Assembly: GCF_003664645.1 (NCBI RefSeq)
Contig: NZ_RCHC01000002.1
Coordinates: forward strand, 186,001-250,000
Source: Acinetobacter chengduensis
Lineage (GTDB): Bacteria > Pseudomonadota > Gammaproteobacteria > Pseudomonadales > Moraxellaceae
Length of the DNA: 64,000 bases
Direction: 5' to 3'
Shown here: one piece after another, positions 2,365-11,476 of the stretch
Position numbering within the stretch: position 1 is the stretch's first letter
Layout of the letters: each line of letters begins with the position of its first letter
Notes under the pieces: model-generated
What the model was told of the DNA's origin: nothing
Databases searched by the model: none
Seen by the model: the letters and a program-made list of their open reading frames with translations, nothing else
Made by a program: the position numbers and the translations under genes

Positions 2365-4254
2365 TTAGTCATTCTCAAGGAACGAACGTAAGTGTTCAGA
2401 ACGAGATGGATGACGTAATTTACGCAAAGCTTTGGCTTCAATCTGACGAATACGTTCACGTGTTACGTCAAACTGTTTACCGACTTCTTCTAAAGTATGA
2501 TCCGTTGGCATATCAATACCAAAACGCATTTTTAAGACTTTCGCTTCACGTTCAGTCAAGTTTTCTAAAACTTCACGTGTTGCCTCTTTCAAGCCTTCAG
2601 AGGTTGCTGCATCAATTGGAGAAGTAATGTTACCATCTTCAATGAAATCACCCAGATGCGAATCTTCATCATCACCAATTGGCGTTTCCATAGAAATCGG
2701 TTCTTTGGCAATTTTGAGGACTTTACGAACTTTAACTTCGTCCATTTCTAGACGTTCGCCTAATTCTTCAGGGGTTGGCTCACGGCCCATTTCTTGAAGC
2801 AATTGACGAGATACACGGTTAATCTTGTTAATCGTTTCAATCATGTGCACAGGAATACGAATGGTACGTGCTTGATCGGCAATTGAACGGGTAATGGCCT
2901 GACGAATCCACCATGTTGCATAAGTTGAGAACTTATAACCACGACGGTATTCAAACTTATCTACCGCTTTCATCAAACCGATGTTACCTTCTTGAATCAA
3001 GTCGAGGAATTGTAGACCACGGTTGGTGTATTTTTTCGCAATCGAGATTACAAGACGTAAGTTCGCTTCGACCATTTCTTTTTTAGCACGGCGCGCTTTC
3101 GCTTCGCCTACAGCCATACGTTTAGAAATTTCTTTAATTTCTTTAACGCTTAAATTGAGATCTTTTTCAATATCTGCAATTTTTTGTTGGAAGGCTAGAA
3201 TATCAGGACGTACTTTTTCTAAGTAGCCTTTCATTTCTGCAGGTGCTTTCGCAATTTGCTCATCTAACCAAGCTTGGTTAGATTCTTGACCTGGGAATGA
3301 TGTACGGAATAGCGTACGATCCATACGACCACGACGTACTGCATAACGCATTACTTCACGTTCTGAGGTACGAATTTGTTCATGTGTACCACGAATCATT
3401 TCAGAAATGATGTCGAATAGGCGAGGCGTAAATTTAAACATCATAAACACAGCAGCTAAATCTTCGAGTGCTTGTTTACCTTCTTTACTATTACGACCGT
3501 GTTTTGCAACCAGTGCTTTAGTATTTGTCCACGCGTTTTCTAATTCAGTAAAACGTGCTTTGGCAATTTCAGGGTCTGGGCCAGAATCACCTTCAGAATC
3601 ATCATCACTTTCAGATTCTTCTTCTTCATCGTCATCATCCAATTTTACATCTTTGGTTGATTTACTTGATGATGCATCATCTTCGTCTAGATCTTCAGAC
3701 TCATCTTCTAAAACTTCAGGAATATCTTCATCAGTTTCAGGGTCTAAATAACCAGATAAAATATCAGCAAGGCGACGTTCACCCGCTTCGTAATCTTTAT
3801 ATTCTTTTAAAACCACTTCAACGGCATTTGGCCAATAAGCGATTGAGTTTAAAACGTCACGAATACCTTCTTCGATTCGTTTCGCAATGCTAATTTCGCC
3901 TTCGCGCGTCAGTAGCTCAACTGTACCCATTTCACGCATATACATACGAACTGGGTCAGTCGTACGACCTGGTTCATTTTCAACTGATGCGAGTACAGCA
4001 GCGGCTTCTTCTTCAGCAACTTCATCTGTTGCGTCGCTACCACCCTCAAACATGGCATCATCAGTTTCAGGTGCACGGTCATGTACAGGAATACCGACGT
4101 CATTCAACATTTGAATGATGTCTTCAATCTGTTCGCTTTCTGTGATTGAATCCGGAAGATGATCGTTGACCTCAGCGAAAGTTAAGTAACCTTGTTCTTT
4201 GCCTCGGCTAATCAGCGCCGCTACTTGGGAAGTAGGGGAATTCATATCGCTCAT
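2365..4254 (-). CDS. rpoD: RNA polymerase sigma factor RpoD (sigma-70)
   Basis: The primary sigma factor, directing core RNA polymerase to housekeeping promoters. At 629 residues it is full length. Domains in order: region 1.1 (about 1-80), region 1.2 ([21 protein letters not shown], about 100-120), a non-conserved insert (about 130-370) with a very acidic serine-rich tract near 180-230, regions 2.1-2.4 (including [20 protein letters not shown] and [15 protein letters not shown]), region 3, and region 4.2 with the helix-turn-helix [22 protein letters not shown]. It is transcribed alone, away from the small acidic gene at 4666. In E. coli rpoD follows rpsU and dnaG; here dnaG is about 18 kb away. 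Confidence 0.98.
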
Positions 4255-8047: not shown

Positions 8048-8539
8048 TTGAGTAATGACCGTCGAATTGCTTCACTTACGCCATGTGCAGGGCGTTGTTC
8101 AACGGTATTTGGTGATGCAGTATGTCGTGGCTGTCGCCGATTCAATCATGAAGTTATTCAGTGGAATACTTATAATTCAGTACAACAAACTGCTGTGTGG
8201 AAACGTTTAGACGCACAGTTGGATCAAATTTTAGTGCCTATGCTACCTTTTGCGGATCTTCGTCATGTAGAAGGTTTTGTTCTGTCTAAGCGTGTGCGTT
8301 TACGTCCAGATGCGAGCCAAGGACGCAAGTTGTATCATGCCTTAAAGCTGTGTGAAAAAAACCGTCATTTTACCGATGATAGTGGGCTTGGAATTCACTA
8401 TAAACAAGTGCGACCGCTGTGGGAAGAATTTGAACGTCGTGTATTGGCACTGGCAACAGCCAGCTATGATTTTGCCTTTTTACGAGCAGATGGCATTAGT
8501 CATCATTTACTGAAGGTATATGAAGAAGAGGACGAATAG
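8048..8539 (+). CDS. DUF1289 domain-containing protein
   Basis: A 163-residue protein whose N-terminus carries a DUF1289 cysteine cluster (CAGRCSTVFGDAVCRGCRRF, residues about 13-32), probably binding a metal. The remainder is helical and has no other motif I recognise. The start is a TTG at 8048 chosen because AGGAG at 8037-8041 is well spaced and no ATG is near. The stop codon lies in the loop of a terminator hairpin. Function unknown. Confidence 0.8.
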   Translation: MSNDRRIASLTPCAGRCSTVFGDAVCRGCRRFNHEVIQWNTYNSVQQTAVWKRLDAQLDQILVPMLPFADLRHVEGFVLSKRVRLRPDASQGRKLYHALKLCEKNRHFTDDSGLGIHYKQVRPLWEEFERRVLALATASYDFAFLRADGISHHLLKVYEEEDE

Positions 8540-8587: not shown

Positions 8588-9199
8588 ATGAACTACTCTG
8601 AATATTTTTTATATTGTGTTGCTGTGATTGTGATGATTGCAACGCCTGGGCCAGTCATGCTTTTGGTGGCTAGCGCTGGATTAAAAGGAGGCTATAAAAA
8701 AGCGCTACAAACGATTTTTGGGACGAATTTAGCCTCATTGGTGCTGATTGTATTGTCTGTACTGATTTTAAAAGGCGTATTGAATATTAATGAGCAATGG
8801 CTAAATGCAATTAAAATATTGGGGTGTATCTATATTGCTTATATTGGCCTACAGGTTTTAAAAGAAGCACGTGAGGCTCAACCCGAACAAAATCAGGTGG
8901 CGCTATCCGATACGCAAGGCGGTTTTAAGCAAGGTTTGCTGGTGGGTATTTCCAATCCTAAAGATATTATTTTCTTTGCATCTTTCTTTCCGCAATTTAC
9001 AGGTATTACAGCTGATTTGAATTTGAGCCTGAGCATTTTAACCATCAGCTGGATTATTTTAGATTTCGCCACGCTGTCTTTGGTTTATCTAGCGTTTAAT
9101 CGTTTATCAGGCTCCGCCGTGTACCCAAAATTACTGGGAATCTGTGGCGCCGTACTGGTTGTGGTTGCTTTATACGGTATTTATAGTGCTTTATTTTGA
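8588..9199 (+). CDS. LysE/RhtB family amino-acid exporter
   Basis: A 203-residue inner-membrane protein with about six transmembrane helices, matching the LysE/RhtB family that exports amino acids or related metabolites by proton exchange. The N-terminus has the family hallmark MIATPGPVMLLVASAGLKGG (about 16-35), and the middle has GLLVGISNPKDIIFFASFFPQF (split near 115-136). The final 9 bases overlap the end of the convergent tetR gene. The substrate cannot be predicted. Confidence 0.9.
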   Translation: MNYSEYFLYCVAVIVMIATPGPVMLLVASAGLKGGYKKALQTIFGTNLASLVLIVLSVLILKGVLNINEQWLNAIKILGCIYIAYIGLQVLKEAREAQPEQNQVALSDTQGGFKQGLLVGISNPKDIIFFASFFPQFTGITADLNLSLSILTISWIILDFATLSLVYLAFNRLSGSAVYPKLLGICGAVLVVVALYGIYSALF

Positions 9200-9754
9200 A
9201 GGCTGGGCTATTAATAAATCAATTAATTGAAAGATCAGCGCTTTTTGTTGGTTGCACATTTGTGCATTAAAGCCATCGATCAATACTGTGCTGATGAGGC
9301 CTTCAAGCTGAAGATAAAATAGGGCGCTTATTTCCTGTTGCTGAGGAAGATGGGTGGTTTTGTTTTGGATCAAATCGCGGATCCATTGCTTATGCGCCTG
9401 AGAAATGGCAAGGATATCTGTATCTTCAGCATTTGATTCACTCACAGCCCGCACAAACAGGCAACCTTTAAAGTGATCTGCCTGAAACCAGTTGATATGC
9501 CAGTCATAAATTTTTTCTAAGGCCTTTATGCCATCAAGTTCTTGAACGCTAGAGAGCAGGCTTTGTCGAAAGCGTTCATCACGCGCTTGTAATACGCTGT
9601 AAACCAACTGGTGCTTATTTTTAAAATATGTGTATAGCGTCGTTTTAGAACACCCAGATTCATCCCGAATAAGATCGACACCAACAGCACTAAAGCTTTG
9701 CTGATTAAACAGCTGTTCAGCGGTTTTTAATATTTTCTGTGCTGATTTAGACAT
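9191..9754 (-). CDS. TetR/AcrR family transcriptional regulator
   Basis: A 187-residue repressor-type protein. The N-terminal helix-turn-helix is residues about 6-50 (AEQLFNQQSFSAVGVDLI, then GCSKTTLYTYFKNKHQLV). The C-terminal ligand-binding and dimer domain contains FKGCLFVRAVSES. It is divergent from an HPP-family gene, and the 105-bp gap carries a perfect 24-bp palindrome that is the obvious operator, so I infer it represses itself and the HPP gene. The inducer is unknown. Confidence 0.92.
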   Translation of the reverse strand: MSKSAQKILKTAEQLFNQQSFSAVGVDLIRDESGCSKTTLYTYFKNKHQLVYSVLQARDERFRQSLLSSVQELDGIKALEKIYDWHINWFQADHFKGCLFVRAVSESNAEDTDILAISQAHKQWIRDLIQNKTTHLPQQQEISALFYLQLEGLISTVLIDGFNAQMCNQQKALIFQLIDLLIAQPSK

Positions 9755-9788
9755 CGTGCTATTGCCTCATTTGAAATAGTATATTTAC

Positions 9789-9812
9789 AAATAGTACAGA
9801 TCTGTACTATTT
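9789..9812. promoter_or_regulatory. Perfect 24-bp palindrome, likely TetR operator
   Basis: The half-site AAATAGTACAGA is followed immediately by its exact reverse complement. It sits midway between the tetR and HPP genes. It overlaps a possible HPP promoter, with TTTACA at 9784-9789 and CTATTT 17 bases later, so binding would block RNA polymerase. A partial extra half-site (AATAGTA) lies just upstream at about 9774. Confidence 0.8.
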
Positions 9813-9859
9813 TAATTATAGCGCGCGCGGTATCTAAGATCAATCAAGAGGAAATAAGG

Positions 9860-10396
9860 ATGAATATATTGGCCAGTAAAGAGAAACTAGCGCCTAAACC
9901 CTCAGGACAGGCACTGCTACGCGGATTTTGTGGGGGGACGCTCAGCATTTTTATTTTGTTGCTCATCGGGCAGTATTCACATCATGCATGGATCATGGCA
10001 CCTTTTGGTGCGAGTTGTGTATTGTTGTATGCGGTACCTCAGTCGCCATTGGCACAGCCACGGAATGTGATTTTTGGGCATGTGGTGTCTGCGGCTATAG
10101 GTTTATGTGTTGCGCTATATTTTCCAGTTAATACTTTCAGTATTGCTATTACTGTCGGGCTGGCTATTTGTTGTATGCAATTTTTTAGATGTGTACATCC
10201 GCCAGCAGGTGCAAATCCATTGGTCATTTTATTGACCGTACATATACAGCACTACGATTGGTGGTTTTTATTATTTCCAGTGTTATCTGGTGCCGTGAGT
10301 TTGGTTGTTGTAGCTTATATGGTGAATAATTGGCGCAGTAGTAAACCGTGGCCAGAGTATGGTCTAGCTGTGTGGCACACTAAAACGAAAGAATGA
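9860..10396 (+). CDS. HPP family membrane protein
   Basis: A 178-residue inner-membrane protein with about five transmembrane helices. It carries the family's name motif in CVHPPAGANPLVIL (about 112-125) and the upstream APFGASCVLLYAVP...QPRNVIFGH signature. Some HPP proteins in plants and cyanobacteria transport nitrite; others are uncharacterised. GAGGAA lies 7-12 bases before the ATG. It appears controlled by the divergent TetR protein through the shared palindrome. Confidence 0.88.
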   Translation: MNILASKEKLAPKPSGQALLRGFCGGTLSIFILLLIGQYSHHAWIMAPFGASCVLLYAVPQSPLAQPRNVIFGHVVSAAIGLCVALYFPVNTFSIAITVGLAICCMQFFRCVHPPAGANPLVILLTVHIQHYDWWFLLFPVLSGAVSLVVVAYMVNNWRSSKPWPEYGLAVWHTKTKE

Positions 10397-10562: not shown

Positions 10563-11222
10563 TTAGAGTTGATGTGCCAAACGGTATTGAACAATTTCAT
10601 CAATAGTAATTAATGTTAAAGCATGTTTTTCTGCGTAGGACAGGACTTGAATACCAGATGCCATTGAGCCATCCGGATTAGTCACTTCACAGAGAACGCC
10701 CGCTGGTTTAAGACCCGCTAAACGTGCCAGATCTACACTGCCTTCGGTATGTCCACGACGAGTGAGTACACCACCATCACGCGCACGTAATGGAAATACG
10801 TGTCCAGGACGATTTAAATCACGAGCCACAGCACCATCTTTAATGGCTGCATGAATAGTGGTGGTGCGGTCTTGGGCTGATACGCCTGTAGTCACACCTT
10901 CGGCAGCTTCAATGGTCACGGTAAAAGCGGTTTTAAATTGGCTTGAATTATCTGCAACCATTGGTGGTAAGGCTAAATGATCTGCCAGTGTATTGGTGAG
11001 TGTGAGGCAAACAATCCCAGATCCATCACGAATCATGCGTGCCATGGTTTCGACATTCAGTGTTTCAGCTGCCACAATGAGGTCAGCTTCATTTTCACGG
11101 TCAAAATCATCCATGACCAAAACAGGTTTGCCTTGGCGCATATCTTCAAGTGCTTGTAATACACGTTGCTCTGAAGGGGGAAGTGCTACAAAGAAAATTT
11201 CGGGTTGCATTAAACTAGACAT
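10563..11222 (-). CDS. ribB: 3,4-dihydroxy-2-butanone-4-phosphate synthase RibB
   Basis: RibB converts ribulose 5-phosphate to 3,4-dihydroxy-2-butanone 4-phosphate and formate, supplying the four-carbon unit of riboflavin. The 219-residue protein has the acidic metal-binding loop [12 protein letters not shown] (about 38-49) and the second signature [20 protein letters not shown] (about 137-156) followed by [13 protein letters not shown]. It is a stand-alone RibB, without a RibA (GTP cyclohydrolase II) domain. An FMN riboswitch sits in its leader, so FMN is expected to repress it. Confidence 0.97.
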
Positions 11223-11327
11223 TGAAACGCTCTCGTAAGTTTTAAGGTACGGTTGAACATTTCAGGACATGTGAAATAGTGTGGCGTTACGGCATAACTT
11301 GAAAATTTCAAGATATTAAGATGTGAC

Positions 11328-11476
11328 GTCGTCTTCTTTCATCCGGACTATACCGTCGGCTTTGGAATCTCACCAAATCTGCTATGCACCATAAAGTACA
11401 TTGGCTCGTGGGCTATGGGCAATTTATTTAACCCAATTACCACCGGTGGGGAATTACACCCCGCCCTGAAGCGATG
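11328..11476 (-). promoter_or_regulatory. FMN riboswitch (RFN element) of ribB
   Basis: Read on the minus strand it begins TTCAGGGCGGGGTGTAATTC, continues CCCACCGGTGGTAATT and ends GCCGACGGTATAGTCCGGAT followed by GAAAGAAGACGA. These are the conserved boxes of the RFN aptamer. No U-tract terminator follows in the 105 bases before ribB, so control is more likely at translation initiation. A small hairpin CTTGAAATTTTCAAG lies downstream. Confidence 0.95.

Follow-up and report, generated by a model that had tools for sequence, protein, structure and literature searches.

A conserved 24-bp palindrome as the putative operator of a divergent tetR–HPP gene pair in Acinetobacter

Introduction

Autoregulated TetR-family repressors encoded divergently from the gene of a membrane protein are exemplified by the TetR–TetA, QacR–QacA and AcrR–AcrAB systems. 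The locus described here lies in a 64-kb window, the whole stretch of Acinetobacter chengduensis DNA that was analysed, and resembles these systems both in the PF00440 helix-turn-helix and all-helical TetR fold of its regulator (Z-scores up to 19.9) and in the presence of a palindromic, putative operator between the genes of the regulator and of a membrane protein. It differs from them in its proposed target, since no drug pump is recognised there but a protein of the HPP family. The type of switch is familiar, and the tetR/HPP operator is a fresh example of it.

Among HPP proteins, AtNITR2;1 and a cyanobacterial homologue are reportedly nitrite transporters, a result of Maeda et al. (2014) as cited in two papers. 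Those transporters and the HPP protein of the window are all called members of the HPP family, to which the latter is assigned by a TM_HPP Pfam match and an HPP motif (residues 113–115); while the former reportedly carry nitrite, the present protein is likened to them by family name, without a link to NirB. According to the available portions of two papers, cyanobacterial and chloroplast members of the HPP family transport nitrite, and HPP genes of anammox bacteria rise under nitrite limitation (PMC4137279, PMC7438415). The view of the first-pass annotation that the HPP substrate is not known is therefore not wholly accurate, nitrite being reported for the cyanobacterial and chloroplast proteins (PMC7438415, PMC4137279, available portions).

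A search of the literature for HPP together with Acinetobacter, TetR or operator yielded a single relevant paper, PMC11858219, and a text query with the core sequence of the operator listed two papers, both unrelated by title. In the available part of that paper, the Pseudoalteromonas haloplanktis plasmid pMEGA carries an HPP gene and a TetR/AcrR gene under consecutive locus numbers, PSHA_p00035 and PSHA_p00036 (PMC11858219). These neighbouring numbers suggest the same type of pair as in the window, and another plasmid (L160, below) has the pair in divergent orientation; the same part of the text names no operator and draws no link between the two genes. It also describes a strain related to pMEGA curing with enhanced oxidative-stress tolerance after loss of the whole plasmid, an effect not assignable to the pair (PMC11858219).

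The comparisons presented below, made at the level of sequences and structural models, indicate that the palindrome very probably serves as operator for the TetR-family product of the gene at 9191–9754, a protein that would be autoregulated and would control both itself and the HPP gene.

Results

The minus-strand tetR gene (9191–9754) encodes a predicted TetR-family repressor of 187 residues with an N-terminal TetR_N helix-turn-helix domain (PF00440; E=1.4e-11, 44.4 bits against a cut-off of 24). Its structural model (pLDDT 94.1) gives 92 Foldseek matches at E≤0.001 and adopts the all-α TetR fold; the nearest solved structures include TetR1 (8z6d), SCO4454 (Z 19.8, r.m.s.d. 2.2, 179 aligned residues) and NemR. 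By sequence, TetR1 (PDB 8z6d) comes closest among solved proteins (family profile, E=2.3e-31), shares the GCLF motif and is 30–32% identical to the present protein; a literature search for the code 8Z6D found no paper. Among the matches listed, the nearest named relative is that of A. cumulans, with 89% identity.

All 87 relatives aligned have the residue Cys98, which is part of an FKGCLF motif and aligns with the redox-active Cys106 of E. coli NemR (4yze), a protein that is among the nearest folds of the model (Z 17.5) and shares 18–19% identity with it. In the available part of a review, Cys106 of NemR is tied to the reactive chlorine response (PMC7464077). These likenesses would suit a thiol switch of the NemR kind, in which oxidants, chlorine species or electrophiles modify Cys98 and free the repressor, the HPP protein moving a small anion or protecting the membrane; the alignment of the cysteines is a lead only. 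The altered oxidative-stress tolerance of P. haloplanktis after loss of the plasmid that bears its HPP and TetR genes points the same way, many other genes having been lost with them (PMC11858219, available part). However, the cysteines of NemR that respond to electrophiles, Cys21 and Cys116, correspond to F16 and N108, and as neither has a counterpart, the TetR protein of the window is not NemR. The Gly-Cys motif is also present in SCO4454, which to our knowledge is not known as a thiol switch, and may therefore be structural. Gene content differs as well, since nemR forms an operon with nemA–gloA whereas the neighbours here are LysE-family, HPP and ribB genes, and Acinetobacter is reported, in a title within a reference list, to have a NemR of its own. 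Taken together, a NemR-like thiol switch appears unlikely. A DUF1289 gene is found near both regulators (ydhL beside nemR, at 1682–1921 of the E. coli locus L150, and 8048–8539 in the window), which may be coincidence.

The proposed target, on the plus strand at 9860–10396, encodes a short-form TM_HPP protein of 178 residues (PF04982, E=7.6e-50). Its HPP motif (H113, P114 and P115) is conserved in at least 95% of 87 sequences and invariant in the 53 that were aligned, and the conserved segments of the protein read FGA, SPLAQP and HPPAGANP. The AlphaFold model (pLDDT 89.4) contains six helices of 13–25 residues, where TM_HPP is defined by four transmembrane helices. A Foldseek comparison of the fold with solved structures returned no match below E=1.6; in a second structure comparison the top rank went to anion channels of the plant ALMT type (7vq3, Z 7.5, r.m.s.d. 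6.5, 160 aligned residues), a result that falls within background and serves as a lead only.

If the HPP protein were a nitrite transporter, with a repressor answering nitrite or a nitrogen signal, it would be in the company of the relatives reported to carry nitrite (PMC4137279, PMC7438415, available portions), and nirB is indeed present in the same genome. Against this stands the distribution of nirB among Acinetobacter genomes, where a match over the cut-off occurs in 73 of the 88 with a short HPP gene and in 71 of 87 others (Fisher p = 0.85), and 15 genomes possess the pair without such a match. Moreover, no nitrogen genes were recognised in the neighbour clusters, the 22 largest of which were listed and part of these named. 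Nitrite transport thus seems doubtful for this protein, and nitrite assimilation was rejected as its role because the presence of nirB is unassociated with short HPP.

Neighbouring genes, which vary among loci, were also discarded as a clue to the role of the HPP protein. Over 95 loci spanning 3.5–6.6 kb, of which the short ones extend no more than about 1.5 kb to either side, the commonest neighbours are a ribB-like gene (34 loci), a LysE-type gene (24 loci), a DMT-type transporter (22 loci) and a DUF1289 gene (17 loci), and tricarballylate-like genes lie close to the pair in other loci (the DMT and tricarballylate names are readings of the sequences). Across these loci, HPP has no stable partner other than TetR. 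In the window, ribB (10563–11222) is preceded by an FMN riboswitch (RF00050, 113 bits, 11327–11476, minus strand), an ordinary arrangement.

The gap between the two genes contains AAATAGTACAGATCTGTACTATTT at 9789–9812, a feature without strand that is proposed as the TetR operator for both. As the first-pass annotation had stated, all 24 bases are self-complementary with a spacer of zero; its placing of the palindrome at the centre between the divergent genes is roughly right, the distances to the start codons being 34 bp for tetR and 47 bp for HPP. No longer perfect palindrome occurs in the window, where the runners-up measure 22 bp (3262–3283) and then 16 bp. With independent bases, one would expect 0.006 perfect palindromes of at least 24 bp per window, and about 8e-6 within the tetR–HPP gap, and none of 60 first-order Markov simulations of the window reached 24 bp, the longest palindrome, of 22 bp, arising in one simulation. 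The 22-bp palindrome of the window, ATCTAACCAAGCTTGGTTAGAT, falls within a 629-residue rpoD-like frame (2365–4254), a name that is read from the sequence and agrees with rpoD as it stands in the A. cumulans record. A third half-site, AAATAGTA at 9774–9781, is absent from that place in the other species inspected and was taken as chance. To the right of the operator, some species (L006, L014 and L016) have a second small palindrome, TTTAGCGCGCTAAA, and the window has a GCGCGCGCG run at about the same place (9821–9829).

Conservation of the palindrome was assessed over 95 loci with both genes, which yield 88 distinct intergenic sequences, the window and one Vibrio included. One of the 88 (L094) was not scored, its HPP start having been estimated inside the site so that too little sequence was left; the core is present in that locus. 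Among the 87 scored sequences, 55 match the 24-mer at all 24 positions, 14 at 23, five at 22 and seven at 21, and weaker matches are found at 20 (one sequence), 19 (three), 18 (one) and 14 (one) positions. The palindrome is therefore kept where the tetR/HPP pair is kept, exactly in 55 of the 88 distinct sequences and at no fewer than 23 of 24 positions in 69, the opposite of what would have spoken against the first-pass proposal. Operator columns 2, 7–10 and 15–18 are invariant in 86 of 86 best sites, and mean pairwise identity over the 79 aligned sites with enough flank amounts to 0.95 in the operator, whereas the left flank reaches 0.40 and the right flank 0.46. By these measures the putative operator is unusually well conserved across the genus. 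Its AT-rich ends are nearly invariant, as are residues M1–A5 of the TetR protein; at a guess, the N-terminal arm of the repressor might read these ends. In L096, where the TetR protein is much diverged (35.5% identity), the gap holds a different palindrome of 20 bp, AGTATACCGATCGGTATACT. A decaying pair is seen in L098 (genome G123), with an HPP fragment and a TetR frame interrupted by stops; its palindrome is still perfect and is altered on both sides (AAATGGTACAGATCTGTACCATTT).

The distribution of the site follows that of the genes. In a sample of 175 Acinetobacter genomes, 170 have some HPP match and 88 have a short HPP, assigned by match score and length (the copy in G123 is a fragment and that in G124 is partial); the other HPP matches, among those listed, belong to long proteins whose open frames run to some 380 residues. 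A close TetR relative, scoring at least 197 bits against profile A1, is found in 87 of the 88 short-HPP genomes and in none of the 87 others; scoring covered up to 19 candidates from each genome, and 'none' means none at that score among these. TetR relatives at E≤1e-30 occur in 119 of 175 genomes, and those of genomes outside the short-HPP group reach no more than 142 bits. When no more than one mismatch is allowed, the 16-bp core is present in 80 of the 88 genomes with short HPP and in none of the 87 without, compared with 3 of 175 for a reversed control pattern; as Acinetobacter species are related, these genome counts are not independent events. Of the eight short-HPP genomes without the core, six have variant sites (L040, L072, L075, L084, L088 and L098), one has the other palindrome of L096 and one, G124, has no TetR. 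Genome G003, which is counted among the 80, has its 16-mer match, with one mismatch, away from the locus, inside a coding frame, and its own site is a variant. Together with the conservation of the site, the core counts lend support to the original proposal of a TetR operator between tetR and HPP.

Where present, the core is normally single and at the tetR–HPP locus. In the genome of the window, a search with the 18-mer allowing three mismatches finds only the site at 9789–9812; the looser 16-mer gives 21 sites at three mismatches (20 besides the operator), compared with seven for the reversed control, and at two mismatches only the operator and one asymmetric site. Since the genome holds a single close match to the 18-mer, the regulon is most likely tetR and HPP alone, in agreement with the two-gene regulon first put forward.

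Ownership of the palindrome by another, global regulator, or its use as a nucleoid or methylation site, is very improbable. Regulators encoded elsewhere can bind such gaps, and the core of the palindrome includes GATC. A global regulator, however, would be expected to have more sites than a core that is normally single and is absent from 87 of 87 genomes without short HPP. Furthermore, among 21 distant TetR relatives sampled class-wide, a palindrome of the form ACAGnnCTGT is one of the two best around the gene start in seven, beside other genes, a count made with no chance control. That core looks like a family-level operator, the HPP target being one branch's use of it. That the palindrome might act as a terminator of transcription or form an RNA hairpin, a notion prompted by an inverted repeat and then a fourth T, has a negligible probability, given that both genes point away from it and that it is AT-rich, has no separate loop and was unreported by a terminator scan.

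Attribution of the palindrome to the adjacent TetR protein is also consistent with the predicted promoters. On the minus strand, the predicted tetR promoter (9815–9843) comprises a −35 hexamer TTGATC (9843–9838), a 17-bp spacer and a −10 hexamer TATAAT (9820–9815), a combination that is a good sigma-70 match. Promoter-like sites as such show no excess in the region (4 compared with a mean of 6.1 in shuffles). The best tetR promoter occupies the same register in 63 of 80 loci, with a 17-bp spacer and a −10 hexamer 2–3 bp outside the operator, and a score of at least 8 is reached by 89% of loci compared with 12% of shuffled flanks. The tetR transcription start would thereby fall within the operator, near 9808, and because the predicted promoter overlaps the palindrome, tetR itself is likely a target of its repressor. 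By position and conservation alike, the palindrome has the placement of an operator at the regulator's own promoter. For HPP, a weak candidate promoter on the plus strand (TTTACA-18-TATTTT, 9784–9813) spans the operator and an alternative (TTAATT-17-TAAGAT) lies just downstream on the same strand, neither being decisive. In 40 of 80 loci, although not in the window, the best HPP promoter match, at one spacing, has a −10 element whose −35 partner falls within the operator's right half, and promoters of that layout score at least 8 in 59% of loci compared with 19% of shuffles.

In the switch proposed on these grounds, a TetR dimer, or two dimers, would occupy the palindrome, and the bound repressor would cover the tetR transcription start and the HPP promoter region, keeping both genes off. 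Some ligand or modification would then free the repressor, so that HPP and TetR rise together. Repression of HPP by occlusion is suggested by the position of the site, and we infer likewise the binding, the sign of regulation, the release by an inducer and the action of the HPP protein as a transporter.

The pair is also carried on plasmids. Two plasmids have it, with the exact 24-mer, amid toxin–antitoxin and other unrelated genes; this and the differing gene surroundings suggest a unit that has been kept together through moves. In A. cumulans, 6561 bases around the pair are identical between the chromosome (L004) and plasmid p1_060092 (L005), where the stretch includes housekeeping genes such as rpoD and rplY, indicating either a recent duplication or an assembly artefact.

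An HPP match was found in 152 plasmid records, and of the 30 listed, 26 are from outside Acinetobacter. A TetR gene stands beside HPP in all six of these 26 that were inspected, a chosen sample of the four best and two selected by genus, with divergent orientation in five and co-directional orientation in Thioclava. Two ACAGATCTGT-type sites 28–31 bp apart accompany the divergent pair in Vibrio salinus (L008), a second Vibrio (L156), Xenorhabdus (L157) and Salinivibrio (L158), with a single base altered in each of the Salinivibrio sites. In a third Vibrio and on a Pseudoalteromonas plasmid (L160), the TetR of the pair is more distant and the two sites, 26–27 bp apart, are of the GTAGAC type. 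In the Thioclava plasmid (L155), where tetR and HPP are co-directional, HPP is followed by the genes of a tautomerase-like protein (a reading of the sequence), a cupin and a malonate decarboxylase α-subunit, neighbours that hint at small organic acids.

A class-wide sample gave an HPP match at E≤1e-20 in 69 of 369 genomes. Among 29 of its HPP loci (L099–L127, 2.0–3.5 kb), a relative of the TetR protein lies near HPP in one, L107, at a distance of about 1 kb and with a frame in between; with one such locus in 29, HPP genes do not as a rule belong to such a module.

Discussion

That the pair reappears in the inspected records of Vibrio, Xenorhabdus, Salinivibrio, Pseudoalteromonas and Thioclava suggests that TetR control is characteristic of one branch of HPP genes. 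A broader proposal would make the pair a transferable two-gene stress module of Proteobacteria, in which reactive species act at Cys98 of an invariant Gly-Cys TetR and the HPP protein is an inducible small-anion channel or exporter. We consider it speculative and quite unlikely; if true, it would give HPP proteins a protective role in heterotrophic bacteria that is distinct from nitrite assimilation.

About half of the Acinetobacter genomes sampled (88 of 175) would, on the present evidence, have a sequence-defined putative operator for a repressor of itself and of one HPP protein. Such an operator would provide a clean reporter for finding the signal to which the repressor responds, and with it a physiological clue to HPP proteins where they are untied to nitrite assimilation.
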